A stretch of 64,000 nucleotides of DNA from Aegicerativicinus sediminis. Lineage in GTDB: Bacteria > Bacteroidota > Bacteroidia > Flavobacteriales > Flavobacteriaceae. A model generated the notes under the pieces. That model made no database searches. It was not told where the DNA came from and saw only the letters and a list, made by a program, of their open reading frames with translations. The stretch covers positions 3,094,001 through 3,158,000 of the forward strand of contig NZ_CP064295.1 in NCBI RefSeq assembly GCF_015476115.1, in the 5' to 3' direction. Shown piece by piece: positions 11,096-49,512 of this stretch. The position numbers were made by a program, and so were the translations under genes. Each line of letters opens with the position of its first letter. The stretch's first letter is position 1.

Positions 11096-11156
11096 GTTAT
11101 TATATTTGGATTTACGGTCCTTAAAACAATTTATTTTCAGTAAGTTAAACTCGTCT

Positions 11157-29880: not shown

Positions 29881-32800
29881 TTAATCAATAATTACCTTTT
29901 TATTTATAATGCCTTTGTTGGTAACTAACTTTATAATGTAATTGCCCGAAGCCGCTTGTTTCACTGGGATTCTAAACTCATTCACCATGTTTGGTAAGTT
30001 GGTAGAATTCCAATCCTTGACCGTTTGACCAATGATATTTATAAGATAAATTTGTTTTGCATAAACATCTTCAGGCATTTGAACATAAATTTCATGAGAG
30101 TCACTTAAGAAATTAACTATAACTGATTCAACGTTAGAATTGTCAATTTTCTCATTTTTCTTTTGATCTTTAGTAAAGGTTACATAAAATCTATCGTTAT
30201 ATTCACCTGCTTCCAAAACAATCTGAAGGTCTTTATCTTTAATATCAAAGTAAGTATCATTTAACACATCGTGAATGTATACTTCTGGAATGACTTCAAA
30301 ATTTTCAAATTTTTCTATGGATATTTTTAATTTCTGCGTTTTTCCAACAACTAGATAAAGGGGATAGCGTTTGGTAACTTCAAATTCTCCAACTCCTTGT
30401 GTTGAATATGTTTGGTCATCAATGGACCATAATAAATCACTTTCATTGATACCAAGGCTAGGAGCATCATAAGCATTATTGAAGGAATCATCTGCTTTGT
30501 TATTGGGGATAAATCCTAGCAATAAGGGTCTTATATAATTCTTTTCATTTGTAAATTTCAAACGGATTCTTTGGATAATATTATCATTTGTATCATTATC
30601 TATCGAATTATTCTTATTACTAACTCTTAGAAATTGTGATGTATTGTCACTGGTGGTACCTTCTTGTTCAGGGAAAAATACCCGCTGGTCATTTCTAAAA
30701 TCTACAAAATCTACGTCACTACTTCCGTTTACCCAGTCTGAATAAACGAAAAATCCTTGTCCCACCGGTATATATCTACCCGGTGTTTTGTTAGGTGTAC
30801 CGTCACCACTGATTAAATTAGAGTTATAAGTGGCCGCATCGTTACCGCCTGTTAAATTATAGGTTGCATATCCACCTTGGTAGAGAGAGAGCCAATGAGA
30901 GTCATTATCAATATAATGTTCCCAAAAGAACAATGTGCCCCACATCGACCCTGTAGTATCAGGATTTCCTCCATACTCAGTCTGTATATTGTCAAATATG
31001 AATTCATCTGCATCAATGGCAGAAAGGTATGGGTTTCCAACTACCATTAAATTTTGAAACCCTAAGTCAACGGCAATTTCGGCATTATTAGGTTTACCTT
31101 TATATGTGTAATAATGTTGACCATTTGTTCCATCGGGCCCACTACCTTTCATGGTATGTCCTAAACCAATTTTAAATGCTGTATTCTCAGTGATTTGCTG
31201 CCACTGATAATAATCTAACCATTCATCAGCGTTCCAACCATAATTATCATAAATGTTGAGCCAATAACGTGGCTTTTGAAGATTAGGATAAGTTCCGAAA
31301 GCATCATATCCGCCTATCCAAGTTATAGATACTGGAGGATTTCCGGCATCATAGTTAATGCCGTCGTAAAATACATCCTGAATTGAAGAATTCACATTAT
31401 TGGCATTGGTGTTAATTTTTGACACTGGAAATGCAAAATAATTATAGTTATACATATTTGTATTACCGTATCGCACCTTGGTAGCATGCCCTTCGCTGGA
31501 AGTATCCAAAGTACTTTCACTGAATTGATCTCCCAGGATATTGCTTGGATCCAAAACGTCAGTAACAATTGGTCCATGAAGGTTATTTGGATAATGTAAA
31601 TAATATTTCTTCTGCACCAGCTGAGACTCACCAATCAAATCCATTGTGCCATCAAGCTTTAAATAATGGGTAATCCATAAACCTCTACCTGCATTAGTTT
31701 CATTGTATGGAGAGCCTTCCCTGAAAACAGTAACGTTGCCTACAGGTCCAGGATTATCAAGATCCTCAATTGCAGATAATCCCAGTACGGTAGTTATATT
31801 ATCACTGTCTGATGAGTTTGGATCATCCTCATTTAAATCTACATCATGATAAATTTTTACAATATTCCAATCTATTTGGTTCCCATTAATACCAGCACTA
31901 TTAGGAGCATCCCACACATCAGGATGAGCCCAAGTATTTATGTTATACCAATCACCATTTTGTTTGGTATAATAAGGTAAAGGAGCCGTTTCATCTTGAA
32001 CTGTGATAATGTTAACCAATTTTCCATCTATTCCAGATCCATTATTAGGGTATAAATAGCCATTAGCAACATCTCCTCCAGTTAATTGGTTCATTTGGTA
32101 ATAGGAAACTAGATTACTCCAACTTAAAACTCCATTATTTGCAACATTTGGTATATTCAATGGAATTTCATCTCCCATAACTCCTCCATTGTCATGGATC
32201 TGCTGGTTCATCATATGGCGTATTTGTCTATGATTGAGGGCTACATTCCAGATTCTTAATTCATCCATCCAGCCTTTAAAATGGTTGGTTGGAGCGTCAG
32301 GGTTTGGACGGTCCATTGCACCAAGTAAAAATTTCTCGTTACCATCGGTACTAGTCGGTAAATTTCCTCCAGACGTTGCCATTAATATTCCGTCTACATA
32401 TAATTTATAATTGGATCCGTCAAAAGATACTGCTGTATGATACCATCTATTGGTACCAATAGTTCCTGCTGTAAGTGAATTAAGGTTATTGTCCCATCTA
32501 AATTTTAAATTACCTCCTTCAAGAACCAAATCATAACCGCCTGCAGCGAGATCTGTTGCATTTCTTTTTGAATAAAGGGTTTGAGTAGAAAAGGTTGGAT
32601 TTTCATGATTTTTAATCCAAAGTTCAATCGTAAATTGTCTAGGATTTGTTTGAAATAATGGACTGTCGATAAAATCGAAATCATCACCATACCTAACATA
32701 ATCATTAAACCCATCAAAATCTAGGGTAGAACATGAGTTCAGAAACACTTCAACTGTATCGCTACATAATGTACTGCCATCAGTATCTAAAATAGTCCAA

Positions 32801-35800
32801 ACGAAGGTATAATTGCCAGCAGGTCCATTTACAAGTGCTTCAGGATTATTCTTGTCTGATACCACACCTAGATCCTGTAAATCTTGTGCAGATAAATTAA
32901 CCCAGTCATAGCCAGTATTTGCAGGTCCAGAACTGATGGTCCATTCACCTAATATATTGGTTGGTCGATAATCCTTGTAATATGTATCGTTCACGGCATC
33001 ATAATAGGCATAAGGATCACTTGAATCACTCAAATCCCAACTACCATCACCGGCCCCATCATTTTCATCGAAGTCAATTAGACCGAATTTTTCCTCAACC
33101 GGAATAAGATCCCAATCGCCATTATCTACTAATTCTTTATAATTTTGGTAAGGTGATTTAAAGTTGTCATAAGCCTTTAAATTAATTCCACCACCACAGT
33201 TGATAGGATCTGCCGCTCTTGCAGCTCCGGCTTGGGCATAATATACGGTTAGAGGAACAATTTCAACACTATTAGGATTTTCACAGCCATCAACTACGGC
33301 TCTTACGTTATAATCTTGTAGACCAGGAGTTTGAGGTGTTGCAACAACCTGATTAGTGTTTGTAATTGGCTCAACGGTTATACCATATTGATTTCTCCAT
33401 TCTACAAAGGCTGTACCATCATTGCCAGGTAAACTCATGCCTTCTATAGCCCATGAACTTCCGCAATTTCTAACCATTGTGAATCGAATTCTCAGGTTGT
33501 CATATAATCTATAAGCATTCAAGTCAATTTGTACTGTATTAAAATCGGTATAACTCGCCGTGCCACTATTTACAGTATTGCTTGTATCTCCTGAACCAAC
33601 AATAATGGAACTAGTTCTATGATTATGACCTGATTCTGGATTTTGGGTTACAAATTCACTGTCAAGGAATGGCTGATATGTTGTACCTCCGTCAGTGGAA
33701 ATTTCAATAATAGCGGCTGAAGGAGGGGCAGCCTCATATTGGCCAGAATTTTCATCCGTTTCACAGCTTGTCATGGCACCGGTTAAACTAAAGGATTCCA
33801 AATATTCAAACATTGGATCGTCTATACCATTCAGATTAAATATGGGAGTTTCTAAGGTTGTAACCCGCAAATCTTTATTCGTAAATCCATTATAATCAGT
33901 ATCGTAGGTATCGTCAGGGAAAATGTCACCATAAGCTTCATAAATTATTGGGTGCTTGTCACCGGTACCAGTAGTATTATAATAACCTGCGGTTATACCA
34001 AATTTACCACGATCTTCGTAAGGATTAGGATTGTCGTTATTATAGGTAATGCCATAATATGTTTTATCGGGGTTGGTAACCGACCAGTTATTTGGACAAA
34101 AGGCACAGTTTCCTGAGGCAGATAATTTTCCTAAATCATCATCCACCAACCAACTGCTCCAATCATTTGTATTTAATTGGCCCTGATCAAAACCACCAGA
34201 ATAATTAAGCTGGTCACCCCCATAATTAATAGTCGAAGACAATGTAGACGACCCTCCCAAACAGTATTCTGTCGGGGCGGCTTGAACGGGTTCGGGCTCT
34301 AAATCCTCTGGGCTAACCACTGCTACATAAGCAACATCAGAGTATTGTAATCCACAAGCTCCAGTAGCTGATGAGGTGTCAAAATCAAAAACAATTCGGT
34401 AAGCTCTTGAGTCTGGAATGTCACCAACTGCATAAGAGGTTAAACCTTCAGTTCCGCTAATCGGTTGCCAAGTACTTCCGGGGGCCAGTATTTCCCATCG
34501 AAGGATAAATTGAGAATTAATATTGCCAATTAAATCCAAAGTAACGTCAGGGTCATCATAACAAACAACAACACCACTACCCGTGCCTGAATTTCCTATA
34601 GTCGAAGTTCCAACAATTTCATAATCACTAGGATCTAAGAAAGGTTGAATTGAGATGGTTTCAGTATGTAAATCTCCCAAACATCCATTTGGTCCCGCCT
34701 CGGCAGGAATCGTATAGGTAATGTCATATTTAACTTCTTCGTTTCCGTCGAAGGACACAGTAATTTCTCCTGTATTCGTATCGATGGTGGCATAATTAGT
34801 TCCATTTGATGATACTATAGAATATGTTCCGCCAGAATCGGGTGCATTTGTTACCTGAATTGAGGTAATACTTCCACAATAAAATTCCTGGGAATAAGAA
34901 AATTCAGCTTCTGGGTTCGGACTAACAGTTAAGTTGAAGTTATCTGATTGTAAAGGAGGACAAATACTACTTGGTCCATTAATAACAAAATAATAATCTC
35001 CAGGATCATTGGTGTCATCAACATCATTAAAGGTATAATCTAAGGTAGTAATACCAGAATTAATGGTTCCGGTTAATCCAGAATCTAAAGGAGTACCAAT
35101 GCCAACCTTATACAGGTCAAAAGTTCCAATTGAACCTGAGGCTATAATTGTAACAGAAACATCATTTGTGCCACCCCCTAAACAAACTTCTATATCAGTA
35201 GGTTGTGTGGTAATACTTATTGTTTGATTCACATTTAAAGTTACCTCGTTGGAAGTTTTTACAGAACATAAACCGCTATTTCCAGAAACAACAACATAAT
35301 ATGCGCCAGCATCGCTCAGGGAAGCTGAATTAATTGCTAAGACATTAGAATTAGATCCAACTGCGACATCATCTGAAAATCCATCCGCAACATCACCTTT
35401 ATACCATTGATAAGATAGAGGTTCATCGCCAACGGCAACAACACTCAGTTCAGCATATTCTCCTGCACAGACTCCAACATTTTGTGGTTGGGTAGTAATG
35501 ACTACTTTGTCAATAATTGTTAGTGTCATTATTTGTGAAACTGCAATACAAGGTCCTGTACCATCTGGGTCATTTGTTGTATATTGTAAAGTAACCGTTC
35601 CGGCATTTGCATCTGCCTGATTAGGAGTATATTGGTCACCGGTTAAGGTTCCGGAAGCGGTTAACTTGGTCCATGTTCCACTAGTCGCTGAGCCACCAAA
35701 ACTTCCTAATAAGGTAATTGTTTCATCTTGACAAGCCGTTTGGTCCTGCACACCATTTATGGTCGCTGCAGGATTAATGGTAAGTACCATGGTGGTGCTT

Positions 35801-38800
35801 GCGGCCTCACAGGCTTCAGCTCCATCCGGATCATTTGTGGTATATGTTAAATTTACTATACCAGCAGTAATATCACCGGATCCCGGGGTGTAATCTGCAC
35901 TTACATTTACACCGCTATTGGAAATATTAGTAAACGCACCGTCTCCATCTGTGGTCCATTCTCCAGAATTCGCAATAGCGGCACCACCCACACTAGTAGA
36001 TAATGACGCTATTTCTCCCTCGCATATTGTTTGAGGCGTTAAATTTGCTACTGTTGCTTTAGGATTGATAGTAACTACCATTGAAGCACTCACCTCACCG
36101 CAAGGACTATTTGAATCTGTTGTAGTAAATGTTAAGGTTACATTTTGCTTGCCCAAATCACCGGGATCAGGTGTGTATATGGCAGTTGGTGAAGTAACGT
36201 CAGAGAAACTTCCTGGACCAGAATTGGTACTCCAAACTCCAGAGGAAATAACATTAGTGTCACTGAATTGAGCATTTAATTGAACTGTGTCATCCGAACA
36301 AATGGTTACGTCAGCCAGACCAGATATAAAGGGAATAGGAGTGACAGTTACAATGGCAGAACCAGTTAAACTTTGCGTGCAATTTAAATCACTATTCCAT
36401 GCTACATCAACTAAGGTATAGGTTGTGGTTTCAGATAAATCTCCTGTATCAATATTGGCCTCTCCATTACTATCTAATGGTATTGTAGCAGTGGTGGGTG
36501 TACCTCCATTATCAATTTCATATGTAACGGTGGAATTTGGTTCACCGTTACGTATTTCTATGGTAGTTCCGGTATTCTCACATATTTCAGAATCAACAGA
36601 TGAAATTGTAACATCATCATCTAGGATATAAATGTACATAGTATCAAATGCACCACCACAATCACCACCTGGATCAATAGTTTGGATATCAATTTTTATA
36701 ACATCGCCAGGTTGGACATCATCTGGAAGCGTATATGGCCCATTAACGTGAGTGCCATGATTTCCAGCATTTGGAAATGATCCCCCAGCATTATTGTCAT
36801 CCCACCACCAATGGCTATTTTTATTTGGGTTTATGGCTCCTCCACCAACATATCCACTTAAAGGAACTGAAACCGTAGAAGCACAAATATATTGATCAGG
36901 CCCTGCGTCCGCTTGTGCATCTGCACCTACCGTAATATCTAAAGTTGAACTTGTAGAGGTCCCACATACATTATTAGCGGTAACGGATAATATGCCACTT
37001 GTGGAGTTTCCAGAAACATCAATAGAAATAGTATTGGTCCCTTGCCCAGTAATTGTAAAACCTGTTCCTGAGTAAGACCAGGTATACGATTGGATGTTAG
37101 GATCAGCCGGACCTATTGTATATACTCTATTTGTAACTGGTGGACAAAGTGAAGTTTCTCCTGTTGGAATAGGAGGAGTAGCCGGAGCTATAAACTCATT
37201 TACCACTACCGAATTTGAACTTGTAACAGCTTGACCATTTGTACAAATATCAGAATCGGGTGTCATCACCACATAAACTTCATTACCGTCCGCCAGAGTA
37301 GAAATATCTAAGGTGGAAGAATTTGTTCCAACAGCTACGTCATTTGCAGTTCCATCTTCTGGATCACCAACATACCATTGATAGGAAGGGGAAGTTCCTC
37401 CATTTGTTGGAGTAGCAGTAAAGGATACCTCTATTCCATCGCAAATATCCATTGGACTTGATTGGTCGATTACTACTGACTGAGGTAATAGAGGGTTAAC
37501 AGTTATAATAAATGAATCGATATTATAACAAGTTCCGTATGAGGAACGAACCCAATATTCAGCAGTGGAGGTTGGAGACACGTTAGTGTTTCCTCCAGTT
37601 AATTCATTAGTATTATTTTCTGCATCATTCAAGGAATTGAAATAACTTAGATTTGGGCCGTCGGTATCTGATTTAGTCGTTAATTCAAAACTTTCTCCTA
37701 AACATATTTCTATATCCTCTCCGGCATCAACTATAGGTAATGCATCTATCGAAATTAGAATATCTTCGGTTATAAAGCAACCTTCAATTGTTTCGGTTCG
37801 AACATAATACGTGGTTTCCGAAGTTGGACTAACGTTACTGTCAGAAAGTGCATTTGTTCCATCTTCAGCATCAGACAAAGTTGAGTGAAACGTAACTGTA
37901 TTTCCAGGACTTATGGCTAAGGTATTTAGATCAATACTAGTTTGACTATCTGCACAAACTGATCCATCTAATACTGCTGAATCAAATACAGGCAAAGGAT
38001 TTACCGTAATTTGAATGTTATTAGAAATTGCCAATAATGGATCTGGACATTGTACACTTGGTCCTGGAGTAACAACAAGATAAAATATATCGCCATCTTG
38101 AAGGTTTTCCGTCAAATCATCCCCATATACAAATGAATTAACAGTGGCTATTGAAATATCGTCGTCATTTGAAGGGTCTCCGTCTAATTTATCATCCTTA
38201 GATCCAACTACTTTAAACCATTCAAATTCTGGATTAGTACCGGTATTAAGGGTTTGTGCCGATATATTAGATAGGTTAATTGATTCTCCTTCACAAATAG
38301 TGTTAGTGGAAACTTGAGCAACAACAGAAGGAACTGCTGGGGTATTGGTTGTAATTGTTACAACATTACTTTCAGCCTCACAGGCAAATGTATTACTTGT
38401 TATTGTTAATTTAACTTTTGTGTTATTGGTAACTGGAGTAGGCAAGGGAAATTCATCTACATCAATACCATCAAGAGCTAATTCATACCCATTTCCATCT
38501 ACATCATCAACATACCATCTATAGTAAAGGTTTGAACCTGCATTTGATACAGTTGAGGTAAAATCAACTGGCACATTAGAACAAAATACAGTTTGATCTG
38601 TACTTATTGAAACATTGGCATTTTGGCTAGCATCTGTTACAGTAACTGTAGCCGTACAAGTGCTTTCATTTCCATTCCCATCATTAATGGTCAATGTAAC
38701 TTCATTGTCGCCTATATCATCGCAATCAAAGGTGCTAGGTAAAACACTTACTAAGTTTACGGTTCCGCAATTATCCGTTGAACCATTATTAATTTGATCA

Positions 38801-41800
38801 GGAGTTATTGAAGCATTTCCACTACTGTCTAATTGTATAGAAATATCTTGGCAAATTGCTGTTGGCGGGGTAGCGTCGCCCCCTGTGTTCGAATAAGTCT
38901 GTCCCGGAAGGTCGTTTCCGTTTGCGTCTGATACGGTGAATGTATATTCCACGGTCCATGCGTCGTCCGTCCCGGTCACGTTGGTTCCCGTAAGTGTTGC
39001 GCTCACGGCCCCTCCGCAGTTGTCGGTATATCCCTGGATGGCAAGTGCTGGGTCGAATGCCGCGGCAGTGCCTGCGTCTGCGCTACATGCGTCGGTTCCT
39101 GTTGTGCCCGCATAGGCGGTCCCGGTCAGCGATGGCGGGGTAGCGTCGCCCCCTGTGTTCGAATAAGTCTGTCCCGGAAGGTCGTTTCCGTTTGCGTCTG
39201 ATACGGTGAATGTATATTCCACGGTCCATGCGTCGTCCGTCCCGGTCACGTTGGTTCCCGTAAGTGTTGCGCTCACGGCCCCTCCGCAGTTGTCGGTATA
39301 TCCCTGGATGGCAAGTGCTGGGTCGAATGCCGCGGCAGTGCCTGCGTCTGCGCTACATGCGTCGGTTCCTGTTGTGCCCGCATAGGCGGTCCCGGTCAGC
39401 GATGGCGGGGTAGCGTCGCCCCCTGTGTTCGAATAAGTCTGTCCCGGAAGGTCGTTTCCGTTTGCGTCTGATACGGTGAATGTATATTCCACGGTCCATG
39501 CGTCGTCCGTCCCGGTCACGTTGGTTCCCGTAAGTGTTGCGCTCACGGCCCCTCCGCAGTTGTCGGTATATCCCTGGATGGCAAGTGCTGGGTCGAATGC
39601 CGCGGCAGTGCCTGCGTCTGCGCTACATGCGTCGGTTCCTGTTGTGCCCGCATAGGCGGTCCCGGTCAGCGATGGCGGGGTAGCGTCGCCCCCTGTGTTC
39701 GAATAAGTCTGTCCCGGAAGGTCGTTTCCGTTTGCGTCTGATACGGTGAATGTATATTCCACGGTCCATGCGTCGTCCGTCCCGGTCACGTTGGTTCCCG
39801 TAAGTGTTGCGCTCACGGCCCCTCCGCAGTTGTCGGTATATCCCTGGATGGCAAGTGCTGGGTCGAATGCCGCGGCAGTGCCTGCGTCTGCGCTACATGC
39901 GTCGGTTCCTGTTGTGCCCGCATAGGCGGTCCCGGTCAGCGATGGCGGGGTAGCGTCGCCCCCTGTGTTCGAATAAGTCTGTCCCGGAAGGTCGTTTCCG
40001 TTTGCGTCTGATACGGTGAATGTATATTCCACGGTCCATGCGTCGTCCGTCCCGGTCACGTTGGTTCCCGTAAGTGTTGCGCTCACGGCCCCTCCGCAGT
40101 TGTCGGTATATCCCTGGATGGCAAGTGCTGGGTCGAATGCCGCGGCAGTGCCTGCGTCTGCGCTACATGCGTCGGTTCCTGTTGTGCCCGCATAGGCGGT
40201 CCCGGTCAGCGATGGCGGGGTAGCGTCGCCCCCTGTGTTCGAATAAGTCTGTCCCGGAAGGTCGTTTCCGTTTGCGTCTGATACGGTGAATGTATATTCC
40301 ACGGTCCATGCGTCGTCCGTCCCGGTCACGTTGGTTCCCGTAAGTGTTGCGCTCACGGCCCCTCCGCAGTTGTCGGTATATCCCTGGATGGCAAGTGCTG
40401 GGTCGAATGCCGCGGCAGTGCCTGCGTCTGCGCTACATGCGTCGGTTCCTGTTGTGCCCGCATAGGCGGTCCCGGTCAGCGATGGCGGGGTAGCGTCGCC
40501 CCCTGTGTTCGAATAAGTCTGTCCCGGAAGGTCGTTTCCGTTTGCGTCTGATACGGTGAATGTATATTCCACGGTCCATGCGTCGTCCGTCCCGGTCACG
40601 TTGGTTCCCGTAAGTGTTGCGCTCACGGCCCCTCCGCAGTTGTCGGTATATCCCTGGATGGCAAGTGCTGGGTCGAATGCCGCGGCAGTGCCTGCGTCTG
40701 CGCTACATGCGTCGGTTCCTGTTGTGCCCGCATAGGCGGTCCCGGTCAGCGATGGCGGGGTAGCGTCGCCCCCTGTGTTCGAATAAGTCTGTCCCGGAAG
40801 GTCGTTTCCGTTTGCGTCTGATACGGTGAATGTATATTCCACGGTCCATGCGTCGTCCGTCCCGGTCACGTTGGTTCCCGTAAGTGTTGCGCTCACGGCC
40901 CCTCCGCAGTTGTCGGTATATCCCTGGATGGCAAGTGCTGGGTCGAATGCCGCGGCAGTGCCTGCGTCTGCGCTACATGCGTCGGTTCCTGTTGTGCCCG
41001 CATAGGCGGTCCCGGTCAGCGATGGCGGGGTAGCGTCGCCCCCTGTGTTCGAATAAGTCTGTCCCGGAAGGTCGTTTCCGTTTGCGTCTGATACGGTGAA
41101 TGTATATTCCACGGTCCATGCGTCGTCCGTCCCGGTCACGTTGGTTCCCGTAAGTGTTGCGCTCACGGCCCCTCCGCAGTTGTCGGTATATCCCTGGATG
41201 GCAAGTGCTGGGTCGAATGCCGCGGCAGTGCCTGCGTCTGCGCTACATGCGTCGGTTCCTGTTGTGCCCGCATAGGCGGTCCCGGTCAGCGATGGCGGGG
41301 TAGCGTCGCCCCCTGTGTTCGAATAAGTCTGTCCCGGAAGGTCGTTTCCGTTTGCGTCTGATACGGTGAATGTATATTCCACGGTCCATGCGTCGTCCGT
41401 CCCGGTCACGTTGGTTCCCGTAAGTGTTGCGCTCACGGCCCCTCCGCAGTTGTCGGTATATCCCTGGATGGCAAGTGCTGGGTCGAATGCCGCGGCAGTG
41501 CCTGCGTCTGCGCTACATGCGTCGGTTCCTGTTGTGCCCGCATAGGCGGTCCCGGTCAGCGATGGCGGCAAATTATCAACTACAGTTACAGTTGAAACAC
41601 AGGAATCACTAGTTGTGTCATTACTATCAGTAACAGTTAAAGTAACGGAGTTTAGTCCTAGGTCAGCACAAGTGAAGTCAGATACATCAATTGATAGCCC
41701 ATTACCTGTACTGCCATTATCAACTTGAGCCGCAGTAATAGTTGCATTTCCATTAATATCTAAATATATGGTGATATTTTGACATAATGCAATGGCAACC

Positions 41801-42018
41801 AATGGGGTTGCTAAATTATTTTTGGTAATTTCAAAAACCCCAGAAGCTGAAACACTTTCAGAATTAGATAATTGCTGTTTAGTATCATTATCAATAACCC
41901 CAACCAAACTTGCATCTAGCGGAATTATTTTTGGGTTTTGCTCCAAAGGGGAGGTGCTACTGTTTCCAATAGCAATGAAGAGAAGAACGACAAGTAGGAA
42001 TAAGTAATTTTTCTTCAT
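29881..42018 (-). CDS. Giant secreted repeat protein (HYR-like, Ig/PKD-like, LamG, T9SS)
   Basis: 4045 residues in one unbroken frame. Signal peptide at 1-20. One HYR-like unit lies at about 73-150, then ten identical 90-residue units at 151-1050 (each with DACSADAG and YTDNCGG Cys sites), then another HYR-like unit to about 1130. Many Ig-like and PKD-like segments follow to about 2600 (for example YQWYKGDVADGFSDD), then a region with paired sandwich domains. LamG lies at about 3096-3270, then the middle module (GRGLWITHYLKLDG, DLIGESQLVQ, YNYNYFAFPVS, GNPYLSAIDADEF), the second module, and a T9SS type A-like tail (ASGNYIIKLVTNKG). Likely an adhesin-like or matrix surface protein; the binding partner is unknown. 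Flanked by its own terminator. Confidence 0.9.
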   Translation of the reverse strand: MKKNYLFLLVVLLFIAIGNSSTSPLEQNPKIIPLDASLVGVIDNDTKQQLSNSESVSASGVFEITKNNLATPLVAIALCQNITIYLDINGNATITAAQVDNGSTGNGLSIDVSDFTCADLGLNSVTLTVTDSNDTTSDSCVSTVTVVDNLPPSLTGTAYAGTTGTDACSADAGTAAAFDPALAIQGYTDNCGGAVSATLTGTNVTGTDDAWTVEYTFTVSDANGNDLPGQTYSNTGGDATPPSLTGTAYAGTTGTDACSADAGTAAAFDPALAIQGYTDNCGGAVSATLTGTNVTGTDDAWTVEYTFTVSDANGNDLPGQTYSNTGGDATPPSLTGTAYAGTTGTDACSADAGTAAAFDPALAIQGYTDNCGGAVSATLTGTNVTGTDDAWTVEYTFTVSDANGNDLPGQTYSNTGGDATPPSLTGTAYAGTTGTDACSADAGTAAAFDPALAIQGYTDNCGGAVSATLTGTNVTGTDDAWTVEYTFTVSDANGNDLPGQTYSNTGGDATPPSLTGTAYAGTTGTDACSADAGTAAAFDPALAIQGYTDNCGGAVSATLTGTNVTGTDDAWTVEYTFTVSDANGNDLPGQTYSNTGGDATPPSLTGTAYAGTTGTDACSADAGTAAAFDPALAIQGYTDNCGGAVSATLTGTNVTGTDDAWTVEYTFTVSDANGNDLPGQTYSNTGGDATPPSLTGTAYAGTTGTDACSADAGTAAAFDPALAIQGYTDNCGGAVSATLTGTNVTGTDDAWTVEYTFTVSDANGNDLPGQTYSNTGGDATPPSLTGTAYAGTTGTDACSADAGTAAAFDPALAIQGYTDNCGGAVSATLTGTNVTGTDDAWTVEYTFTVSDANGNDLPGQTYSNTGGDATPPSLTGTAYAGTTGTDACSADAGTAAAFDPALAIQGYTDNCGGAVSATLTGTNVTGTDDAWTVEYTFTVSDANGNDLPGQTYSNTGGDATPPSLTGTAYAGTTGTDACSADAGTAAAFDPALAIQGYTDNCGGAVSATLTGTNVTGTDDAWTVEYTFTVSDANGNDLPGQTYSNTGGDATPPTAICQDISIQLDSSGNASITPDQINNGSTDNCGTVNLVSVLPSTFDCDDIGDNEVTLTINDGNGNESTCTATVTVTDASQNANVSISTDQTVFCSNVPVDFTSTVSNAGSNLYYRWYVDDVDGNGYELALDGIDVDEFPLPTPVTNNTKVKLTITSNTFACEAESNVVTITTNTPAVPSVVAQVSTNTICEGESINLSNISAQTLNTGTNPEFEWFKVVGSKDDKLDGDPSNDDDISIATVNSFVYGDDLTENLQDGDIFYLVVTPGPSVQCPDPLLAISNNIQITVNPLPVFDSAVLDGSVCADSQTSIDLNTLAISPGNTVTFHSTLSDAEDGTNALSDSNVSPTSETTYYVRTETIEGCFITEDILISIDALPIVDAGEDIEICLGESFELTTKSDTDGPNLSYFNSLNDAENNTNELTGGNTNVSPTSTAEYWVRSSYGTCYNIDSFIITVNPLLPQSVVIDQSSPMDICDGIEVSFTATPTNGGTSPSYQWYVGDPEDGTANDVAVGTNSSTLDISTLADGNEVYVVMTPDSDICTNGQAVTSSNSVVVNEFIAPATPPIPTGETSLCPPVTNRVYTIGPADPNIQSYTWSYSGTGFTITGQGTNTISIDVSGNSTSGILSVTANNVCGTSTSSTLDITVGADAQADAGPDQYICASTVSVPLSGYVGGGAINPNKNSHWWWDDNNAGGSFPNAGNHGTHVNGPYTLPDDVQPGDVIKIDIQTIDPGGDCGGAFDTMYIYILDDDVTISSVDSEICENTGTTIEIRNGEPNSTVTYEIDNGGTPTTATIPLDSNGEANIDTGDLSETTTYTLVDVAWNSDLNCTQSLTGSAIVTVTPIPFISGLADVTICSDDTVQLNAQFSDTNVISSGVWSTNSGPGSFSDVTSPTAIYTPDPGDLGKQNVTLTFTTTDSNSPCGEVSASMVVTINPKATVANLTPQTICEGEIASLSTSVGGAAIANSGEWTTDGDGAFTNISNSGVNVSADYTPGSGDITAGIVNLTYTTNDPDGAEACEAASTTMVLTINPAATINGVQDQTACQDETITLLGSFGGSATSGTWTKLTASGTLTGDQYTPNQADANAGTVTLQYTTNDPDGTGPCIAVSQIMTLTIIDKVVITTQPQNVGVCAGEYAELSVVAVGDEPLSYQWYKGDVADGFSDDVAVGSNSNVLAINSASLSDAGAYYVVVSGNSGLCSVKTSNEVTLNVNQTISITTQPTDIEVCLGGGTNDVSVTIIASGSIGTFDLYKVGIGTPLDSGLTGTINSGITTLDYTFNDVDDTNDPGDYYFVINGPSSICPPLQSDNFNLTVSPNPEAEFSYSQEFYCGSITSIQVTNAPDSGGTYSIVSSNGTNYATIDTNTGEITVSFDGNEEVKYDITYTIPAEAGPNGCLGDLHTETISIQPFLDPSDYEIVGTSTIGNSGTGSGVVVCYDDPDVTLDLIGNINSQFILRWEILAPGSTWQPISGTEGLTSYAVGDIPDSRAYRIVFDFDTSSATGACGLQYSDVAYVAVVSPEDLEPEPVQAAPTEYCLGGSSTLSSTINYGGDQLNYSGGFDQGQLNTNDWSSWLVDDDLGKLSASGNCAFCPNNWSVTNPDKTYYGITYNNDNPNPYEDRGKFGITAGYYNTTGTGDKHPIIYEAYGDIFPDDTYDTDYNGFTNKDLRVTTLETPIFNLNGIDDPMFEYLESFSLTGAMTSCETDENSGQYEAAPPSAAIIEISTDGGTTYQPFLDSEFVTQNPESGHNHRTSSIIVGSGDTSNTVNSGTASYTDFNTVQIDLNAYRLYDNLRIRFTMVRNCGSSWAIEGMSLPGNDGTAFVEWRNQYGITVEPITNTNQVVATPQTPGLQDYNVRAVVDGCENPNSVEIVPLTVYYAQAGAARAADPINCGGGINLKAYDNFKSPYQNYKELVDNGDWDLIPVEEKFGLIDFDENDGAGDGSWDLSDSSDPYAYYDAVNDTYYKDYRPTNILGEWTISSGPANTGYDWVNLSAQDLQDLGVVSDKNNPEALVNGPAGNYTFVWTILDTDGSTLCSDTVEVFLNSCSTLDFDGFNDYVRYGDDFDFIDSPLFQTNPRQFTIELWIKNHENPTFSTQTLYSKRNATDLAAGGYDLVLEGGNLKFRWDNNLNSLTAGTIGTNRWYHTAVSFDGSNYKLYVDGILMATSGGNLPTSTDGNEKFLLGAMDRPNPDAPTNHFKGWMDELRIWNVALNHRQIRHMMNQQIHDNGGVMGDEIPLNIPNVANNGVLSWSNLVSYYQMNQLTGGDVANGYLYPNNGSGIDGKLVNIITVQDETAPLPYYTKQNGDWYNINTWAHPDVWDAPNSAGINGNQIDWNIVKIYHDVDLNEDDPNSSDSDNITTVLGLSAIEDLDNPGPVGNVTVFREGSPYNETNAGRGLWITHYLKLDGTMDLIGESQLVQKKYYLHYPNNLHGPIVTDVLDPSNILGDQFSESTLDTSSEGHATKVRYGNTNMYNYNYFAFPVSKINTNANNVNSSIQDVFYDGINYDAGNPPVSITWIGGYDAFGTYPNLQKPRYWLNIYDNYGWNADEWLDYYQWQQITENTAFKIGLGHTMKGSGPDGTNGQHYYTYKGKPNNAEIAVDLGFQNLMVVGNPYLSAIDADEFIFDNIQTEYGGNPDTTGSMWGTLFFWEHYIDNDSHWLSLYQGGYATYNLTGGNDAATYNSNLISGDGTPNKTPGRYIPVGQGFFVYSDWVNGSSDVDFVDFRNDQRVFFPEQEGTTSDNTSQFLRVSNKNNSIDNDTNDNIIQRIRLKFTNEKNYIRPLLLGFIPNNKADDSFNNAYDAPSLGINESDLLWSIDDQTYSTQGVGEFEVTKRYPLYLVVGKTQKLKISIEKFENFEVIPEVYIHDVLNDTYFDIKDKDLQIVLEAGEYNDRFYVTFTKDQKKNEKIDNSNVESVIVNFLSDSHEIYVQMPEDVYAKQIYLINIIGQTVKDWNSTNLPNMVNEFRIPVKQAASGNYIIKLVTNKGIINKKVIID
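38869..41568 (-). repeat. Ten tandem 270-bp units, identical by eye, within the giant gene
   Basis: The array is exactly 10 x 270 bp, in frame (90 residues per unit, residues 151-1050). Each unit starts PPSLTGTAYAGTTGTD and ends SNTGGDAT. Comparing printed lines 540 bp apart, and the two phases against each other, I see no base difference between copies. My hand count gives 165 G or C in 270 (61%), against a clearly AT-rich surround. The first unit is preceded by VDNL and the last is followed by PPTAICQD, so the borders are sharp. Confidence 0.95.
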
Positions 42019-42309: not shown

Positions 42310-45300
42310 TTAGTTAATAACTATCTTTTTGTTGTAGGTTTTTTGTTCGGTTTCCATTTTCAACACATAATTCCCTGTTGCTGTATTATTAACCGGTATT
42401 CTTATTTCATTGGAGGAATTTATGGAGAATTTACTCCAACTATTCACCGTTTGCCCAATCATATTTACTAATTGAACAGATTTGATATTTAAATCGCTTG
42501 GGGCCTTAATATAGATTTCTCTACTGTTAGTTAAATAATTGATTATTAATCCAGTAAATTCTTCTACCTCAACAATTTCTTTTTCCTCTTTTTTAAAGAC
42601 CATATAAAATTGATCAGTATAATCTCCTGGTTCAAGAACTATTTCTAAATCACCTTTCGATAAGTTAAAATAAGTGTCATGGACTTGATCAAAGACATAT
42701 ACATTAACTTCATTTTCGAATCTTTGTACTTCGGTAAGTTTCATTCTATAAAGTCCTTGTGTTGTTATTTTTAAATTTAACGGTATTCGAATATTTTCAT
42801 TGAACTCCTCCCTACATTGAATAGTACATAATTTATCTTCTACTTTAAAGGAGAGATCATCAATCAAATTATCATTATTTACAGCGTCATATCCTGGGTC
42901 AAAATTTTCAGTGGCTTTGTTCAAAGTTGAAAATCCTAACAACAAATTTCTAACTGTTTTAGTAGGTGCTTCAAAAGAGAACCTCAAAGTTCTATTTGGA
43001 TAGGTTTCTTCCGGGTTATTTGTTAATTGATTTGTTTTCATAGTCCTCATAAAAGTGGAGTTTCCAGAGGATTCACGTTCAAAATAGCGTTGATCGTTTT
43101 CAAATTTTATTTTTCCTGAGGCAACACCACTAGACATTACAAAGAAACCCTGCCCCACTGGGATATACGGCCCGGGTAATTTGGATGAACTGCCTAGGCC
43201 ACTTATTAGAGAAGAATAGGGGGCTAAAACTGCTCCAGTTAAATTTCTTATAGCATACCCGCCTTCATAATCTTCCAAAATATGTGTTTTGTTTGATGGA
43301 TAGTGTTCCCAGAAATATAAACTGCCATACATGGTTTGTGTGCTATTAGAATTTCCTCCTGGTATATTATCCAAAATAAACTCATCAATCCATACTGAAG
43401 ATGGATAAGGGTTTCCGACCAAGGCCATATTGCCTGTTGTAATGGTTACCTCAATATCGGAGTTATTTGGTTTTCCTTTGAATGTGTAATTTTGCTCACC
43501 GTTAGAATATAAATTAGAACCTACTCCACTTCCTTTCATCGTAAATCCTAATCCAGGTGCAATTGAACCGGAATTACCGATGTAATTCCATTGTGCATAT
43601 TCGGCCCAAGCGTCATTTTCTATAATTCTATAATTTTCAAAAGCGTATAACCACCTCTTACTTAAGGTGATGGGGTTATTACCTCCTGTTGCGTCATAAC
43701 TATTGGTCCATTGAATGGATTTTGGATTGTTCGTATCTGAACCATCTAAGAGTGTATTGCCAATTGTATATGGCATATTGATGGAGGTGGTGTTAATTGT
43801 ACTTACCGGAGATCCCCAATAATTATAGTTGTAAATATTGGTAGTCCCTTGCTGGTCTCTCTCAATGAAACCTGAACTGGTAATGTCTAATTCGCTATCA
43901 TTTAATTGATCGGCGGTATATCGCTTTTGAATTAATTGAGAATCTCCAACTAAATCAATTGAGCCGTCAAGTTTTAAATAATGAGTTATCCACATGCCAC
44001 GACCAGGATTATATTCATTTTTGGTACCTGATTGAGCGACCGTTATTTCGTTTGAAGTAACAAGTAATCCTAAAAGGGTGACATCTTTCTGTTCTAAATC
44101 TACATTATGACTAGTCTTAACTATATTCCATTTAATCTCTTTTCCATTAATTCCGGTAGAGTTTGGATAGTCCCAAACGGTGTTTCCATAAGTCCAAGGG
44201 GTAGCGGTAGAGGTGTTGGTCCATTTGCCATTTCTAATAGTGGTGTAGGGTATTGGTGCCGTTTCCTCTTCAGGTGTAAAAATGTTTCTAAGTCTACCGT
44301 TTACACCTTTATAAGCTGTTAAGAAACCACAATCAACATTCATTCTGTAATATCCATCTAAATTGCTCCACGTTAGAGTTTCATCTTCGGTTCCATTTTG
44401 ATCTGTGTCTCGGCCTGCAATACGTCTCGGAATGACTTCGCCCATTACATCATTTCCAGAGGCTTTTATTTCCTGGTTCATCATCTGATGAATCATTTCA
44501 TCACTTAAGCCAATATTCCAAACTCGAACCTCGTCAATCCATCCATTAAAATAGTTTACAGGTGGATCATTAGATGCTCCACCGTTATCCATAGCCCCCA
44601 AAATGCAATCTATATCCGTTGGTGTAATTCCTGGAGCCACAGCTGAGCCCGATTGATTCCCAACATCCAATCCATCTACATAGAGCTTATAAGCACCGTT
44701 AAAGGTTACTGCGATATGATACCATCTATTAGAAGATATGGCATGGCTTGAGGTAATTGTTCCAGAACCTGAAGTGGAATACCATTCAAATCGTGGTTTT
44801 CCTCCCACTAATCTTAAGGCGTATCCCGCACTATTGCTATTGGCGTTCTTTTTTGAAATTATGGTTGGACTTCCAGAAGTGCTATTGGGCTTTACCCACA
44901 TTTCTAAAGAAAAGTTACCATTAAGGGCATAATTGTCCCTGAAATTCACATAGTCGTTAATTCCATCAAAATTCACATAATCACAATTTGTGATGGTGAT
45001 ACTAACGTCGTCATAACAACCATTAGTAAGAGTCCATCTTAATACATAGGTTCCAGGTTGTCCAGTGAAAGTGGCTCTGGGGTCCGTGTTACTTGAAAAT
45101 GTTGCAGTTGCACCGCAGGTCGTGGTTGGACCTGAAACAATGCTCCAACTTCCAGTGACTCCCGTTCCTTGGAAATTTATATCACCAATAGCGGTGTTTG
45201 GAACAACATAAAGTCCATTTTCATAGGCTCCATTATTGTAATTTTCAACAGCTGTTAATGTATTGTCATAGGCGTTAAGTGGTACAGTTGTTTGTCCACA

Positions 45301-48300
45301 TTCTCCTGAATTTGGAGTGCGATCCTGACCGGCATAAGCCAGACTTGTATTTATATTAATGAATTCGGTTCCATCATCGGTATCTGCCCTACATCCATTT
45401 ACTAAAGCGGTTACTCCATATTCCCTAATACCTGGTGTTACAGGCTCTACCGCAACGGTGGTTCCGGTTGCCACAACAGTTCCTTTTTCATCTGTCCATT
45501 CCAAAACTTCATCAATAGGGGCGTAAGGAAATCCTACATCATCAATAACCCATGCGCTATAAACATCAAAATTATGAGGTACTGAAGAACACGTATTACC
45601 CGCACCAGTTGGAAAGTAGGCGCCATTACATTTTGACTGTCCTTGCGCATCATAAGAAAAACGAACCCTTAAGCTTGATAAATTAATATAATCGGAAAGG
45701 TCTACTGAAGTGTATCTGAATGGGTCAGATGTTGGTTGCTGCCCATTTGGTCCAGTACCACACGAACCACTATTGGTCTTAACTGAAACTCCAGTATTAT
45801 TGCCGGATGTAAAGTTGTCATTTTGTTGGGTGTTTAACACAATATCATAGGTATTTCCACCGTCTAACGACAATTCAATTTTTCCATTGGCACCATTACA
45901 GAAATAATAGGCTGTGTAAAAAGTTAAAATAGCATCTCCAGGATTCATTCCCACCGTATTGAAAACAGGTGTTTCCAATGTAGAGGAATAGGGACCTTGT
46001 GCAATTGCAAATTTTGTATTGTCGCTGGTGTCGTAACGAATACCTGACTGAATTACAGGACCGTTCGTTTCTTTCCAGGTAGGCTCATTTGTATTATTAC
46101 CACTTGCGGGAAAAAATCCGTCAATACCATTAACTCGCCATCCATCAGGCTGAGCATAGTTGAAAAGTCCTCCATCTCCAAATTGACCAAAGGCTTCAAA
46201 ATAACTTTCGGCCACAACGGTTACGTCATCTCCTAAGCAGATATCCAAAGCAGTAGTACTAACAATTATTGGTGGTTCATCTGGGGGTAAAAACCTAATG
46301 ACAGCAACTGGTGAAAATTCTATACAATCACCAGATTGTATTACGGCTCTAACCACGGTTGTGGTGGTTAGATTTAGTAAGGTTATCTGAAGTTTTCCAG
46401 CTGAATTGGAAACTGTTGTCCAATTGGCACCTTGGTCATTAGAAAATTGCCAATTCTTAATGTTTGCTGTAGTGATATTGCTACTTCCATCAAGATTCAA
46501 TGTTAATTGAACATCTTTCGGAATTGTAACACCTCCTGGACAAGCAGTAACCTCAATTAGATCATCGGCAGGTTGAGGATTATCAGGTATGGGGTTTACA
46601 ACAACACCGGTAACTGTACCACTTGTAATTGTTGGAGCTTCCACAATAACTGTAACGTTGCAGCTACTACTATTGCCATAGGCATCAGTAATTGTAAGGG
46701 GAATGGTTCGTGTTCCAATATCGTTACATCCAAAGGAAGTTTGCGACATGCTTAGTGTAATGTTCGAACATGTATCTCCAGAACCATTATATATTGAATT
46801 TATATCAGTAATATTTGCTTGACCAGTTGAAGGATCGAGAGTTAAGGTTATTGGTCCGGCACAAGAAGCGTCTGGTGCGGTAACGTCTTTCACTAAAACA
46901 TTTGCTGTGCAGGTTGAGGAATTTCCATTGGCATCAGTAACCGTTAAGGTTACCGTATTGTTTCCAATATTACTACAATCAAAATTTGCAGGGGAAACCG
47001 ATAAGGTTGGTACACTACAATTGTCATAAGAGCCGTTATCAATATCATCAGCATTTATAGTTGCCTGTCCATTTCCAAGTTCAACCGTTATATCCCTACA
47101 TAAGGCTACAGGAGGGGTGGTGTCAGATGGAATTACGCTAAATGTACAGGATGATGAATTTCCTGAATCATCTGTTGCAGTTAATGTTATTTGAGTGTTT
47201 GAGGTTATCACGGTTCCTACTGCTGGTGACTGTGAAATACTTAGGTTGTTACCACAATTATCAGATGCATTCAAAAGCCCTGTAAAATCAATAAGTGTAT
47301 AGTTGCAGGTGGAATCAAAACTTACGTTTTGGTTGCTTGGACAGGTTATTGTGGGATTAATATTATCCTCCACGGTGACCGTTGCGGTGCAGGTGGATGT
47401 GTTGTCGTTGTTGTCGGTGACGGTAAGTGTCACGGTGTTCGCACCAATATCGGCACAGCTGAAACTTGTCTTGCTGGCGGTTATTGACTTGATGCCACAG
47501 GCATCATCGGACCCGTTGTCGATATCGGCGGCCGTCATGGTCGCATTCCCAGAGCTGTCCAGCTGAAGTGTTATGTTCCTGCAAAGGGCAGTCGGGGCCA
47601 CATTATCCTCAACGGTGACCGTTGCGGTGCAGGTTGCTATGTTATCGTTGTTGTCGGTGATGCTAAGTGTCACAGTATTCGCACCAATATCGGCACAGCT
47701 GAAACTTGTCTTGCTGGCGGTTATTGACTTGATGCCACAAGCATCATCGGACCCGTTGTCGATCTCCGCGGCGGTCATGGTCGCATTCCCAGAGCTGTCC
47801 AGCTGAAGTGTTATGTTCCTGCAAAGGGCAGTCGGGGCCACATTATCCTCAACGGTGACCGTTGCGGTGCAGGTTGCTATGTTATCGTTGTTGTCGGTGA
47901 TGCTAAGTGTCACCGTGTTCGCACCAATATCGGCACAGCTGAAACTTGTCTTGCTGGCGGTTATTGACTTGATGCCACAGGCATCATCGGACCCGTTGTC
48001 GATATCGGCGGCCGTCATGGTCGCATTCCCAGAGCCGTCCAGCTGAAGGGTGATATTCCTGCAAAGGGCAGTCGGGGCCACATTGTCCTCCACGGTGACC
48101 GTTGCGGTGCAGGTGGATATGTTGTCGTTGTTGTCGGTGACGGTAAGTGTCACGGTGTTCGCACCAATATCGGCACAGCCGAAGCTTGTCTTGCTGGCGG
48201 TTATTGACTTGATGCCACAGGCATCATCGGACCCGTTGTCTATATCGGCGGCCGTCATGGTCGCATTCCCAGAGCCGTCCAGCTGAAGGGTGATATTCCT

Positions 48301-49512
48301 GCAAAGGGCAGTCGGGGCCACATTGTCCTCCACGGTGACCGTTGCGGTGCAGGTGGATATGTTGTCGTTGTTGTCGGTGACGGTAAGTGTCACGGTGTTC
48401 GCACCAATATCGGCACAGCCGAAGCTTGTCTTGCTGGCGGTTATTGACTTGATGCCACAGGCATCATCGGACCCATTGTCGATATCGGCGGCCGTCATGG
48501 TCGCATTCCCAGAGCCGTCCAGCTGAAGTGTTATGTTCCTGCAAAGGGCAGTCGGGGCCACATTATCCTCAACGGTGACCGTTGCATTGCAGGTTGCTAT
48601 GTTATCGTTGTTGTCGGTGATGGTAAGTGTCACGGTGTTCGCACCAATATCTGCACAGCTGAAACTTGTCTTGCTGGCGGTTATTGATTTGATGCCACAG
48701 GCATCATCGGACCCGTTGTCGATATCGGCGGCCGTCATGGTCGCATTCCCAGAGCCGTCCAGTTGAAGTGTTATGTTCCTGCAAAGGGCAGTCGGGGCCA
48801 GATTGTCTTCTACAATAACATTGGTGGTACAAGAAGAGGTGTTTCCTGCTGTATCAGTAACAGTAAGTGTAACTGTATTACTTCCGATATCGGAACAATT
48901 GAAATTAGTTTTACTTAATGAAAGATTGGCAATACCCACATTATCCGTGGATCCAGAGTTGATATCGTTTACATTGATGGAAGCATTACCAGAACCATCA
49001 AGACTAATTGTAAAATTAGCTACACAATTAGCTGCCGGATTTTCATTATCTGTAACATTAATATTGAATGAACATGTTCCTAATATAGTTCCAGTCGCAT
49101 TTTCTTCTTCCTGAAATGTTATTGTGGTTGACCCAATTGGAAATTGTGATCCAGAAATAGGTCCTTCAGTTTGTGTTATGGTACTTAAACCTGCTCCCAA
49201 AGTTGGAGAAGGGTCAGAAAAATTTACGACTGCATAGTCTAATCCAGTATCAGTGTCTGAATCTATATCCCCTTGACAACTAATTGCCAAAGTTGATTCT
49301 ATTTTATGTGAAGTGGTCGCCTCAAATTTATATTGATTAATGTCCCAGTTGTTATCTAGCTTGTGACCATTTTTAATTTCTACAATGGATAAACCAGCCA
49401 AATTGCTATCTAAAGGAACAATTTGGGGTTGTAAATAAGAGATATTAGTAGAGGCTTGAAACTTGTATATAACAAGTATAAGGATGACAAAGCTGAAATA
49501 TAGTTTTTTCAT
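42310..49512 (-). CDS. Large secreted HYR-repeat, LamG protein with T9SS signal
   Basis: 2400 residues from the ATG at 49512 (MKKLYFSFVILILVIYKFQA, a signal peptide); an in-frame ATG at 49584 would add a 24-residue non-signal lead. HYR-like units run from about 80 to 1000, including six closely related 80-residue units at 239-718. A sandwich domain with GKIELSLDGGNTYD follows, then LamG at about 1512-1671 (FSLEMWVKPNS, WYHIAVTFNGAYKLYVDG). The middle module (GRGMWITHYLKLDGSIDLVG, ERDQQGT, YNYNYWGSPVS, GNPYPSSVW), the second module (VYVFDQVHDTYFNLSKGDLE) and the T9SS tail (ATGNYVLKMETEQ) complete it. It shares its plan with the 4045-residue protein but not its 90-residue units. Presumed surface role; ligand unknown. 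Confidence 0.9.
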   Translation of the reverse strand: MKKLYFSFVILILVIYKFQASTNISYLQPQIVPLDSNLAGLSIVEIKNGHKLDNNWDINQYKFEATTSHKIESTLAISCQGDIDSDTDTGLDYAVVNFSDPSPTLGAGLSTITQTEGPISGSQFPIGSTTITFQEEENATGTILGTCSFNINVTDNENPAANCVANFTISLDGSGNASINVNDINSGSTDNVGIANLSLSKTNFNCSDIGSNTVTLTVTDTAGNTSSCTTNVIVEDNLAPTALCRNITLQLDGSGNATMTAADIDNGSDDACGIKSITASKTSFSCADIGANTVTLTITDNNDNIATCNATVTVEDNVAPTALCRNITLQLDGSGNATMTAADIDNGSDDACGIKSITASKTSFGCADIGANTVTLTVTDNNDNISTCTATVTVEDNVAPTALCRNITLQLDGSGNATMTAADIDNGSDDACGIKSITASKTSFGCADIGANTVTLTVTDNNDNISTCTATVTVEDNVAPTALCRNITLQLDGSGNATMTAADIDNGSDDACGIKSITASKTSFSCADIGANTVTLSITDNNDNIATCTATVTVEDNVAPTALCRNITLQLDSSGNATMTAAEIDNGSDDACGIKSITASKTSFSCADIGANTVTLSITDNNDNIATCTATVTVEDNVAPTALCRNITLQLDSSGNATMTAADIDNGSDDACGIKSITASKTSFSCADIGANTVTLTVTDNNDNTSTCTATVTVEDNINPTITCPSNQNVSFDSTCNYTLIDFTGLLNASDNCGNNLSISQSPAVGTVITSNTQITLTATDDSGNSSSCTFSVIPSDTTPPVALCRDITVELGNGQATINADDIDNGSYDNCSVPTLSVSPANFDCSNIGNNTVTLTVTDANGNSSTCTANVLVKDVTAPDASCAGPITLTLDPSTGQANITDINSIYNGSGDTCSNITLSMSQTSFGCNDIGTRTIPLTITDAYGNSSSCNVTVIVEAPTITSGTVTGVVVNPIPDNPQPADDLIEVTACPGGVTIPKDVQLTLNLDGSSNITTANIKNWQFSNDQGANWTTVSNSAGKLQITLLNLTTTTVVRAVIQSGDCIEFSPVAVIRFLPPDEPPIIVSTTALDICLGDDVTVVAESYFEAFGQFGDGGLFNYAQPDGWRVNGIDGFFPASGNNTNEPTWKETNGPVIQSGIRYDTSDNTKFAIAQGPYSSTLETPVFNTVGMNPGDAILTFYTAYYFCNGANGKIELSLDGGNTYDIVLNTQQNDNFTSGNNTGVSVKTNSGSCGTGPNGQQPTSDPFRYTSVDLSDYINLSSLRVRFSYDAQGQSKCNGAYFPTGAGNTCSSVPHNFDVYSAWVIDDVGFPYAPIDEVLEWTDEKGTVVATGTTVAVEPVTPGIREYGVTALVNGCRADTDDGTEFININTSLAYAGQDRTPNSGECGQTTVPLNAYDNTLTAVENYNNGAYENGLYVVPNTAIGDINFQGTGVTGSWSIVSGPTTTCGATATFSSNTDPRATFTGQPGTYVLRWTLTNGCYDDVSITITNCDYVNFDGINDYVNFRDNYALNGNFSLEMWVKPNSTSGSPTIISKKNANSNSAGYALRLVGGKPRFEWYSTSGSGTITSSHAISSNRWYHIAVTFNGAYKLYVDGLDVGNQSGSAVAPGITPTDIDCILGAMDNGGASNDPPVNYFNGWIDEVRVWNIGLSDEMIHQMMNQEIKASGNDVMGEVIPRRIAGRDTDQNGTEDETLTWSNLDGYYRMNVDCGFLTAYKGVNGRLRNIFTPEEETAPIPYTTIRNGKWTNTSTATPWTYGNTVWDYPNSTGINGKEIKWNIVKTSHNVDLEQKDVTLLGLLVTSNEITVAQSGTKNEYNPGRGMWITHYLKLDGSIDLVGDSQLIQKRYTADQLNDSELDITSSGFIERDQQGTTNIYNYNYWGSPVSTINTTSINMPYTIGNTLLDGSDTNNPKSIQWTNSYDATGGNNPITLSKRWLYAFENYRIIENDAWAEYAQWNYIGNSGSIAPGLGFTMKGSGVGSNLYSNGEQNYTFKGKPNNSDIEVTITTGNMALVGNPYPSSVWIDEFILDNIPGGNSNSTQTMYGSLYFWEHYPSNKTHILEDYEGGYAIRNLTGAVLAPYSSLISGLGSSSKLPGPYIPVGQGFFVMSSGVASGKIKFENDQRYFERESSGNSTFMRTMKTNQLTNNPEETYPNRTLRFSFEAPTKTVRNLLLGFSTLNKATENFDPGYDAVNNDNLIDDLSFKVEDKLCTIQCREEFNENIRIPLNLKITTQGLYRMKLTEVQRFENEVNVYVFDQVHDTYFNLSKGDLEIVLEPGDYTDQFYMVFKKEEKEIVEVEEFTGLIINYLTNSREIYIKAPSDLNIKSVQLVNMIGQTVNSWSKFSINSSNEIRIPVNNTATGNYVLKMETEQKTYNKKIVIN
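47359..48798 (-). repeat. Six tandem 240-bp HYR-like units with mosaic differences
   Basis: Six in-frame units of 80 residues (residues 239-718), starting APTALCRNITLQLD and ending TATVTVEDN. Unlike the 270-bp array they differ at scattered sites: SFSCADIG or SFGCADIG, DGSGN or DSSGN, TLTVTDNNDNIS, TLSITDNNDNIA or TLTVTDNNDNTS, and one AADID to AAEID change. Different sites group the units differently, which suggests exchange between copies. Units 2 and 3 are identical in protein sequence. The block is visibly richer in GC than the flanking HYR units. Confidence 0.9.

Follow-up and report, generated by a model that had tools for sequence, protein, structure and literature searches.

Stalks built of identical repeats are already known, and GC-biased gene conversion in bacteria has been proposed yet is disputed. 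Periscope Proteins are length-variable stalks on bacterial surfaces, and two papers propose recombination between the repeats as the way in which the length changes (PMC8201768, PMC9704523). The term "GC content" is absent from both papers. Regarding base composition, Lassalle et al. (2015) argue for GC-biased gene conversion in bacteria, with G+C, most of all at third codon positions, rising where recombination is frequent (PMC4450053); their text never uses the words "tandem", "paralog" or "Bacteroid". In contrast, another paper (PMC6867656) states that Bobay and Ochman reject bacterial GC-biased conversion, and that correlations across genes are small or inconsistent. In the literature consulted, mainly open-access, no report of homogenised coding arrays with raised GC in bacteria was recognised.

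The window analysed here, a stretch of 64,000 nucleotides from the genome of Aegicerativicinus sediminis (contig NZ_CP064295.1, positions 3,094,001 to 3,158,000), contains a giant gene whose product is like the Periscope Proteins (PMC8201768, PMC9704523) in that it is a secreted or surface protein with long, near-identical tandem domain repeats. Long and highly identical tandem repeats, one of the marks of Periscope Proteins, are found here as ten identical units of 90 aa. The features of the locus are as follows.

29881..42018, minus strand: giant gene, an ORF of 4045 codons, carrying the array at codons 151-1050
41950..42018, minus strand: signal-peptide-like N-terminal stretch, MKKNYLFLLVVLLFIAIGNSSTS, read by eye from the sequence
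41575..41793, minus strand: single HYR-like unit preceding the array, of the unit type of the neighbouring paralogue P0002 (E 3.7e-20 to alignment A1)
38869..41568, minus strand: a 270-bp unit (90 aa) repeated ten times without change, GC 61%; TRF sets the start at 38863, because six further bases match
38632..38871, minus strand: one HYR-like unit immediately following the array, again of the P0002 type (E 2.1e-31 to alignment A1)
36934..37185, minus strand: PKD_6 domain, residues 1612-1695 (50.8 bits, cut-off 25)
35284..35502, minus strand: Ig-like domain, residues 2173-2245 (Ig_3, 37.1 bits, cut-off 30)
32221..32655, minus strand: Laminin_G_3 / concanavalin-like domain, residues 3122-3266 (77.2 bits, cut-off 27.6)
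29887..30060, minus strand: C-terminal T9SS type A sorting domain, residues 3987-4044 (TIGR04183, 27 bits, above the curated cut-off of 23)
42310..49584, minus strand: P0002, the adjoining giant paralogue of 2424 codons and the same build (ORF and domain search)
47362..48804, minus strand: second array, in P0002, 6.0 x 240 bp with 95% matches (TRF), HYR units, GC3 0.66 vs 0.27 elsewhere in P0002
26118..28883, minus strand: another member of the paralogue cluster (921 aa) with Laminin_G_3, similar to the giant gene in its final part (sequence match)
28917..29708, minus strand: protein of 263 aa resembling a part of the two giant proteins close to their ends (sequence match)

The array lies near the N terminus of the giant protein and the Laminin_G_3 domain near its C terminus; Pfam Por_Secre_tail was not among the domain matches of the protein in the Pfam search. 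From this build, and by analogy with the Periscope Proteins, the array probably forms the stalk of a giant secreted protein. The giant genes are adjoined by genes for a MIP-family aquaporin-like channel (49861-50550) and a vanadium-haloperoxidase/PAP2-like protein (50691-52175).

In the assembly, to which copy number and identity refer, cutting 38869-41568 by program into ten 270-mers gave one distinct sequence, and TRF reported 38863-41568 with a period of 270, 10.0 copies, 100% matches and 0% indels, which bears out the original prediction of ten in-frame 270-bp units without base differences. The exact self-match at an offset of 270 forms a single unbroken run of 2436 positions from 38863, and the 270 bases flanking the array on each side match the unit at 23% and 29%, hence the array is not bordered by degenerate copies. 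It runs in frame within the giant ORF on the minus strand, and when the single-contig genome (4,094,245 bp) was searched at the DNA level, the unit was found ten times, every copy inside this array. Such an array of ten identical units could not arise by chance. A change of its copy number between isolates is plausible by analogy with Periscope-type proteins, for which variation in repeat number is known (PMC8201768); the change of antigenic form that the original prediction attached to it is speculative.

The original prediction was silent on base composition, which is the feature that sets the array apart from its own gene. The unit has 61.1% G+C compared with 37.6% in the remainder of the gene, the values at the three codon positions are 0.578, 0.644 and 0.611 in the unit vs 0.462, 0.424 and 0.244 in the gene remainder, and the step is sharp and falls at the array edge. 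All six long-period arrays found in the genome, which come from several domain families, have 52-62% G+C. In the 6 x 240 array of P0002, GC3 is 0.663 vs 0.274 in the gene remainder, and within this one gene the six homogenised HYR units show GC3 values of 0.60-0.71 and five diverged HYR-type units values of 0.16-0.27. One gene at locus L167 holds two arrays, 7.1 x 249 with GC3 0.722 and 3.5 x 495 with GC3 0.527, vs 0.291 in the rest of the gene. The arrays at L276 (8640-10822, 9 x 243) and L307 (16180-19335, 13 x 243) are free of substitutions and reach GC3 0.778 vs 0.275 and 0.198 outside, and 0.765 vs 0.209 and 0.194 outside, respectively. According to Pfam, the units belong to HYR in P0002 (129.9 bits for the whole protein, cut-off 21.7), to HYR_4C, above its cut-off, in L276 and to Big_2 in L307; a 60-aa piece of an L167 unit matched no Pfam family.

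The recent expansion or strong gene conversion proposed in the original prediction was right in kind, since zero differences in ten copies demand it, but recency alone leaves unexplained both the 61% GC in a gene of 37.6% GC and the GC-rich state of all six arrays. Pure recency without bias was hence rejected as an explanation, because it cannot create GC. The third option raised at that time, an artefact of assembly or polishing giving a wrong copy number or identity, is very unlikely. The arrays at L276 and L307 carry two single-base indels each, which break their reading frames in the assembly, as residual long-read errors might do. These indels, which could be either read errors or frame switching, show that the assembly is imperfect inside arrays. 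However, the genome is one contig, complete by its assembly figures, the window array is free of indels and its frame is open, and neither collapse nor expansion of copies can yield GC.

The rarity of such composition in this genome is evident from a content-blind sample of 40 position-chosen 20-kb stretches, 800 kb in total, in which the L276 and L307 arrays were the only arrays with a period of at least 60. The 2521 non-array tiles of 85 codons in this sample have a mean GC of 0.365 and a maximum of 0.482, so that none reaches 50%, and their GC3 averages 0.300 with a standard deviation of 0.058 and a single tile at 0.60. Outside this sample, two tiles beside the L167 arrays that were not called as arrays have a GC of 0.53-0.54. 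Within the sample, the non-array tiles with the highest GC lie in a gene run at L270 (4808-19107; G000:C1 ~1504.8-1519.1 kb) with GC3 ~0.39-0.50, which looks prophage-like from its translations.

The main rival explanation assumes that the unit came in from a GC-rich donor, was recently amplified and has yet to drift to the host composition. The 61% GC and the foreign codon use of the unit speak for it, as do the copies without differences and the congener: the orthologue-like gene there (G154:C1 ~363-375 kb, with an end that is 44% identical) has no match to the unit, hence the array is specific to the lineage of the source genome. An import could have occurred, most readily in the case of the window array, which may go back to a GC-rich founder. 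Furthermore, the units elsewhere that are nearest to the P0002 unit by amino acids (~70-74%) include two with GC3 0.46 and 0.44 besides those with 0.25, 0.14 and 0.11. The search for a donor points the other way. Sequences matching the unit occur in 32 of the 397 family genomes searched, 4 of 395 of the class and 1 of 395 of the phylum, with the source genome counted each time; the 19 best relatives with loci show 0.33-0.45 GC and 0.10-0.31 GC3 in the matched stretch, and no GC-rich relative appeared among the family, class and phylum genomes searched. By the searches used, the unit was also without match in the phage, plasmid, genome-contig and viral-contig sets. In addition, six arrays in five genes would call for separate imports, each bounded by native AT-rich sequence, and no non-array tile among the 2521 has 50% GC, the prophage-like stretch included. 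Finally, imports should deviate in either direction, but in GC-richer hosts (GC3 of the gene remainder at least 0.38, identity at least 0.82) 11 of 13 arrays still lie above their own gene. Hence, we regard an import as unlikely.

The relatives may also be difficult to assemble. Among the 19 non-own genomes with loci, of 31 that matched, the best unit match lies at most 1.5 kb from a contig end in seven, vs 0.58 expected, and a count of seven was reached in 0 of 200,000 simulations, as if the relatives too carried arrays that break draft assemblies. A separate observation concerns L049 (G409, ~7858-11612), where identical HYR units are spread over several short ORFs (five of them in one ORF, GC3 0.69); this looks like a broken or misassembled array.

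The P0002 array consists of HYR repeats (PF02494), and the window unit aligns with HYR_4C (PF23237) below the gathering cut-off (22.9 bits, or 24.8 bits for two units; cut-off 27), with two cysteines per unit vs four in HYR_4C. The unit at 41299-41568 has lost both cysteines of the second pair, although 8 of 8 relatives in the alignment retain them, which looks as though one disulphide had been given up as a pair. The structure models are poor: a single-sequence model of two units had a mean pLDDT of 47, and a model from a 12-row alignment reached 60, with beta strands confined to the better-predicted half. Foldseek with the unit model returned nothing at E <= 0.001, and a sequence search of PDB chains gave two weak matches (E 0.093 and 0.21). 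Hence, the idea of a folded domain is drawn from the relatives of the unit. The GARP value is 0.34 in the window unit vs a mean of 0.21 across 107 related units, and the P0002 units show little GARP shift.

Whether raised GC accompanies homogenisation in general was addressed in a cross-genome survey, in which the GC3 of each in-ORF tandem array was compared with that of the remaining ORF. The codon usage of the ORF served to correct the difference for amino-acid content, and the resulting excess was related to the identity of adjacent copies. Survey 1 consisted of hand-picked regions, survey 2 of at least 77 loci from a separate scan and survey 3 of 40 regions from a phylum-wide search; the loci of surveys 1 and 3 were chosen by hand from search matches, several because the matches stood in tandem, and those of survey 2 were taken as the scan listed them. 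Left out were arrays lying less than 95% inside one ORF of 250 codons (which removes L276 and L307 with their broken frames), arrays whose gene has less than 1200 nt of non-array sequence (3 of 139), second instances of identical arrays and overlapping loci (L044, L046, L183). The headline set comprises the arrays with at least 4 copies, 59 of 136 usable ones, without duplicate loci; this cut was first applied on survey 1, and in survey 2 the relation between identity and GC3 excess is significant at cuts of 2, 3, 4 and 5 copies.

At the 4-copy cut and unadjusted, identity and GC3 excess correlate with rho 0.66 in survey 1 (n=18) and, independently, with rho 0.84 in survey 2 (n=24, p 3e-7); survey 3 alone, adjusted, gave rho 0.32 without significance (n=7, p 0.48), with only one array above 93% identity. 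The pooled adjusted value is rho 0.68 for 59 arrays from 43 genomes, nearly all of them Bacteroidota by kinship or record title; it is 0.63 without the source genome (n=56) and 0.58 when the most homogeneous array per genome is taken (n=42). The adjusted GC3 excess averages +0.167 at identities of at least 0.93 (13 of 14 arrays positive), +0.076 between 0.85 and 0.93 (9 of 10) and -0.003 below 0.85 (12 of 35). One array from another genus, 10 x 258 with all copies identical, has a PKD/Ig-like, non-HYR unit and GC3 0.50 vs 0.27. Thus, the G+C excess follows the degree of homogenisation, though not in every lineage.

There are exceptions. Copies are 92-99% alike yet the rise is absent or reversed in the arrays of G635, G1080, G348, G283 (L072) and L061, the first three, from survey 3, showing no rise. 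L072 combines 95% identity over 8 copies with a GC3 excess of -0.04, L117 98% identity over 2.1 copies with -0.07, and L227 97% identity over 2.5 copies with 0. The clearest case against a universal rise is L061 (9541-10083), in which 2.6 copies at a contig end are 99% alike and GC3 is 0.088 vs 0.208. The reverse also occurs, since L085 is 84% identical yet has an excess of +0.29, and L232 is 83% identical yet has +0.20. Comparisons inside genes and genomes gave mixed results. The within-gene rank test on HMM-found units was flat (median rho 0.00, 57 of 115 ORFs positive, p 0.94), and HYR_4C-type units alone reached no significance in the within-gene test. Contrasting units of at least 0.90 with those below 0.80 identity within genes gave 20 positive genes out of 34, yet this was significant by size (p 0.005). 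Edge units were not clearly GC-poorer than inner units (11 of 19 arrays, p 0.20; 4 of 5 risen arrays, p 0.19), and pairs of arrays within a genome went in the expected direction in 5 of 7 cases (p 0.45).

The correlation as such would also be predicted if causation ran in reverse, that is, if GC-rich units recombined more and their arrays became homogeneous for this reason, and PMC6867656 allows that high GC may raise local recombination. However, the genome offers no GC-rich raw material for such a process, because its 2521 unselected tiles, with the GC3 distribution given above, stand against array units at 0.61-0.78. We therefore consider reverse causation quite unlikely.

The kind of change bears on another alternative. 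In 20 arrays chosen for having risen, the mean shift at 4-fold sites is -0.096 for A, -0.125 for T, +0.102 for C and +0.120 for G, and C is up at two-fold pyrimidine sites in 18 of the 20 and G at two-fold purine sites in 17. The shift from A/T to G/C is thus strand-symmetric over codon families. Selection on codon usage or on mRNA or DNA properties, sharpened by concerted evolution, could be suspected from the low-GC giant genes at L070, L072-L074 and L079, where GC4 is 0.03-0.16, below GC3, and no rise is seen, as if codon selection ruled there. For the array the same explanation is very unlikely. It uses codons that are avoided by the ribosomal stretch, for example CTG, GTG, CCG and GCC, and shuns those favoured there, and its GC4 is 0.525 vs 0.177 in the ribosomal-operon stretch, a reference that pools the ORFs of 19 kb, some of them non-ribosomal; moreover, the flanks on the same mRNA are untouched and the shift is strand-symmetric. 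Codon selection as the source of the array GC was accordingly set aside on the codon preference of the ribosomal stretch. On their own account, the giant HYR-type genes at L069, L070, L073, L074 and L079, whose arrays have no GC rise, show GC4 values of 0.03-0.12, below GC3, as under strong codon selection.

Homogenisation without bias leaves the expected base composition unchanged, hence a directional factor is needed in addition. A repair bias towards G/C is favoured by the lack of GC-rich relatives, the six imports that would otherwise be needed, the 11 of 13 arrays above their own gene in GC-richer hosts and the low probability of codon selection. Therefore, concerted evolution by recombination with G/C-favouring repair is in our opinion the best reading, towards which we lean slightly rather than firmly. 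The tandem units of the extensible stalk of a giant protein with a T9SS sorting tail would recombine with each other by unequal exchange and gene conversion, which would keep the copies identical. If mismatch repair during recombination favoured G/C over A/T in the lineage of the source genome, every round of homogenisation would push the unit towards G+C, while AT-biased mutation would prevail outside the arrays and shape the rest of the genome. In this scheme we infer recombination as the homogenising agent and locate the bias in its repair step. Relative to a GC3 of 0.300, the ln odds ratios of the six genome arrays are 1.30, 1.52, 1.80, 0.96, 2.10 and 2.03, and the range from 0.96 to 2.10 would be the scaled bias size needed at equilibrium. 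In more general terms, tandem coding arrays in many Bacteroidota, most strongly in the source genome, might be hot spots of GC-biased conversion that lift GC3 from ~0.2-0.3 to 0.6-0.78 within one gene, with a fall back at the array edge; for this wider statement we see as much reason for belief as for doubt.

If true, the arrays would be natural recorders of the conversion bias that is argued over for bacteria, and this bias would also drive the repeat protein towards amino acids with GC-rich codons. Homogenised arrays offer a strong contrast in one gene, since expression, function and replication position do not differ between the two sides of a sharp edge, hence the disputed G/C bias of bacterial recombination becomes directly testable. 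There are practical consequences as well, because GC-rich islands in AT-rich giant genes would pass for horizontal transfer, and draft assemblies seem to break at such arrays, judging from the best unit matches near contig ends.

Regarding the known systems, the window protein differs from the Periscope Proteins by its T9SS-type export tail and its HYR/Ig-like units. In the work of Lassalle et al. (PMC4450053) the unit considered is the recombining gene; in the source genome it is a homogenised repeat array that makes up part of a single gene, and the effect is far larger.
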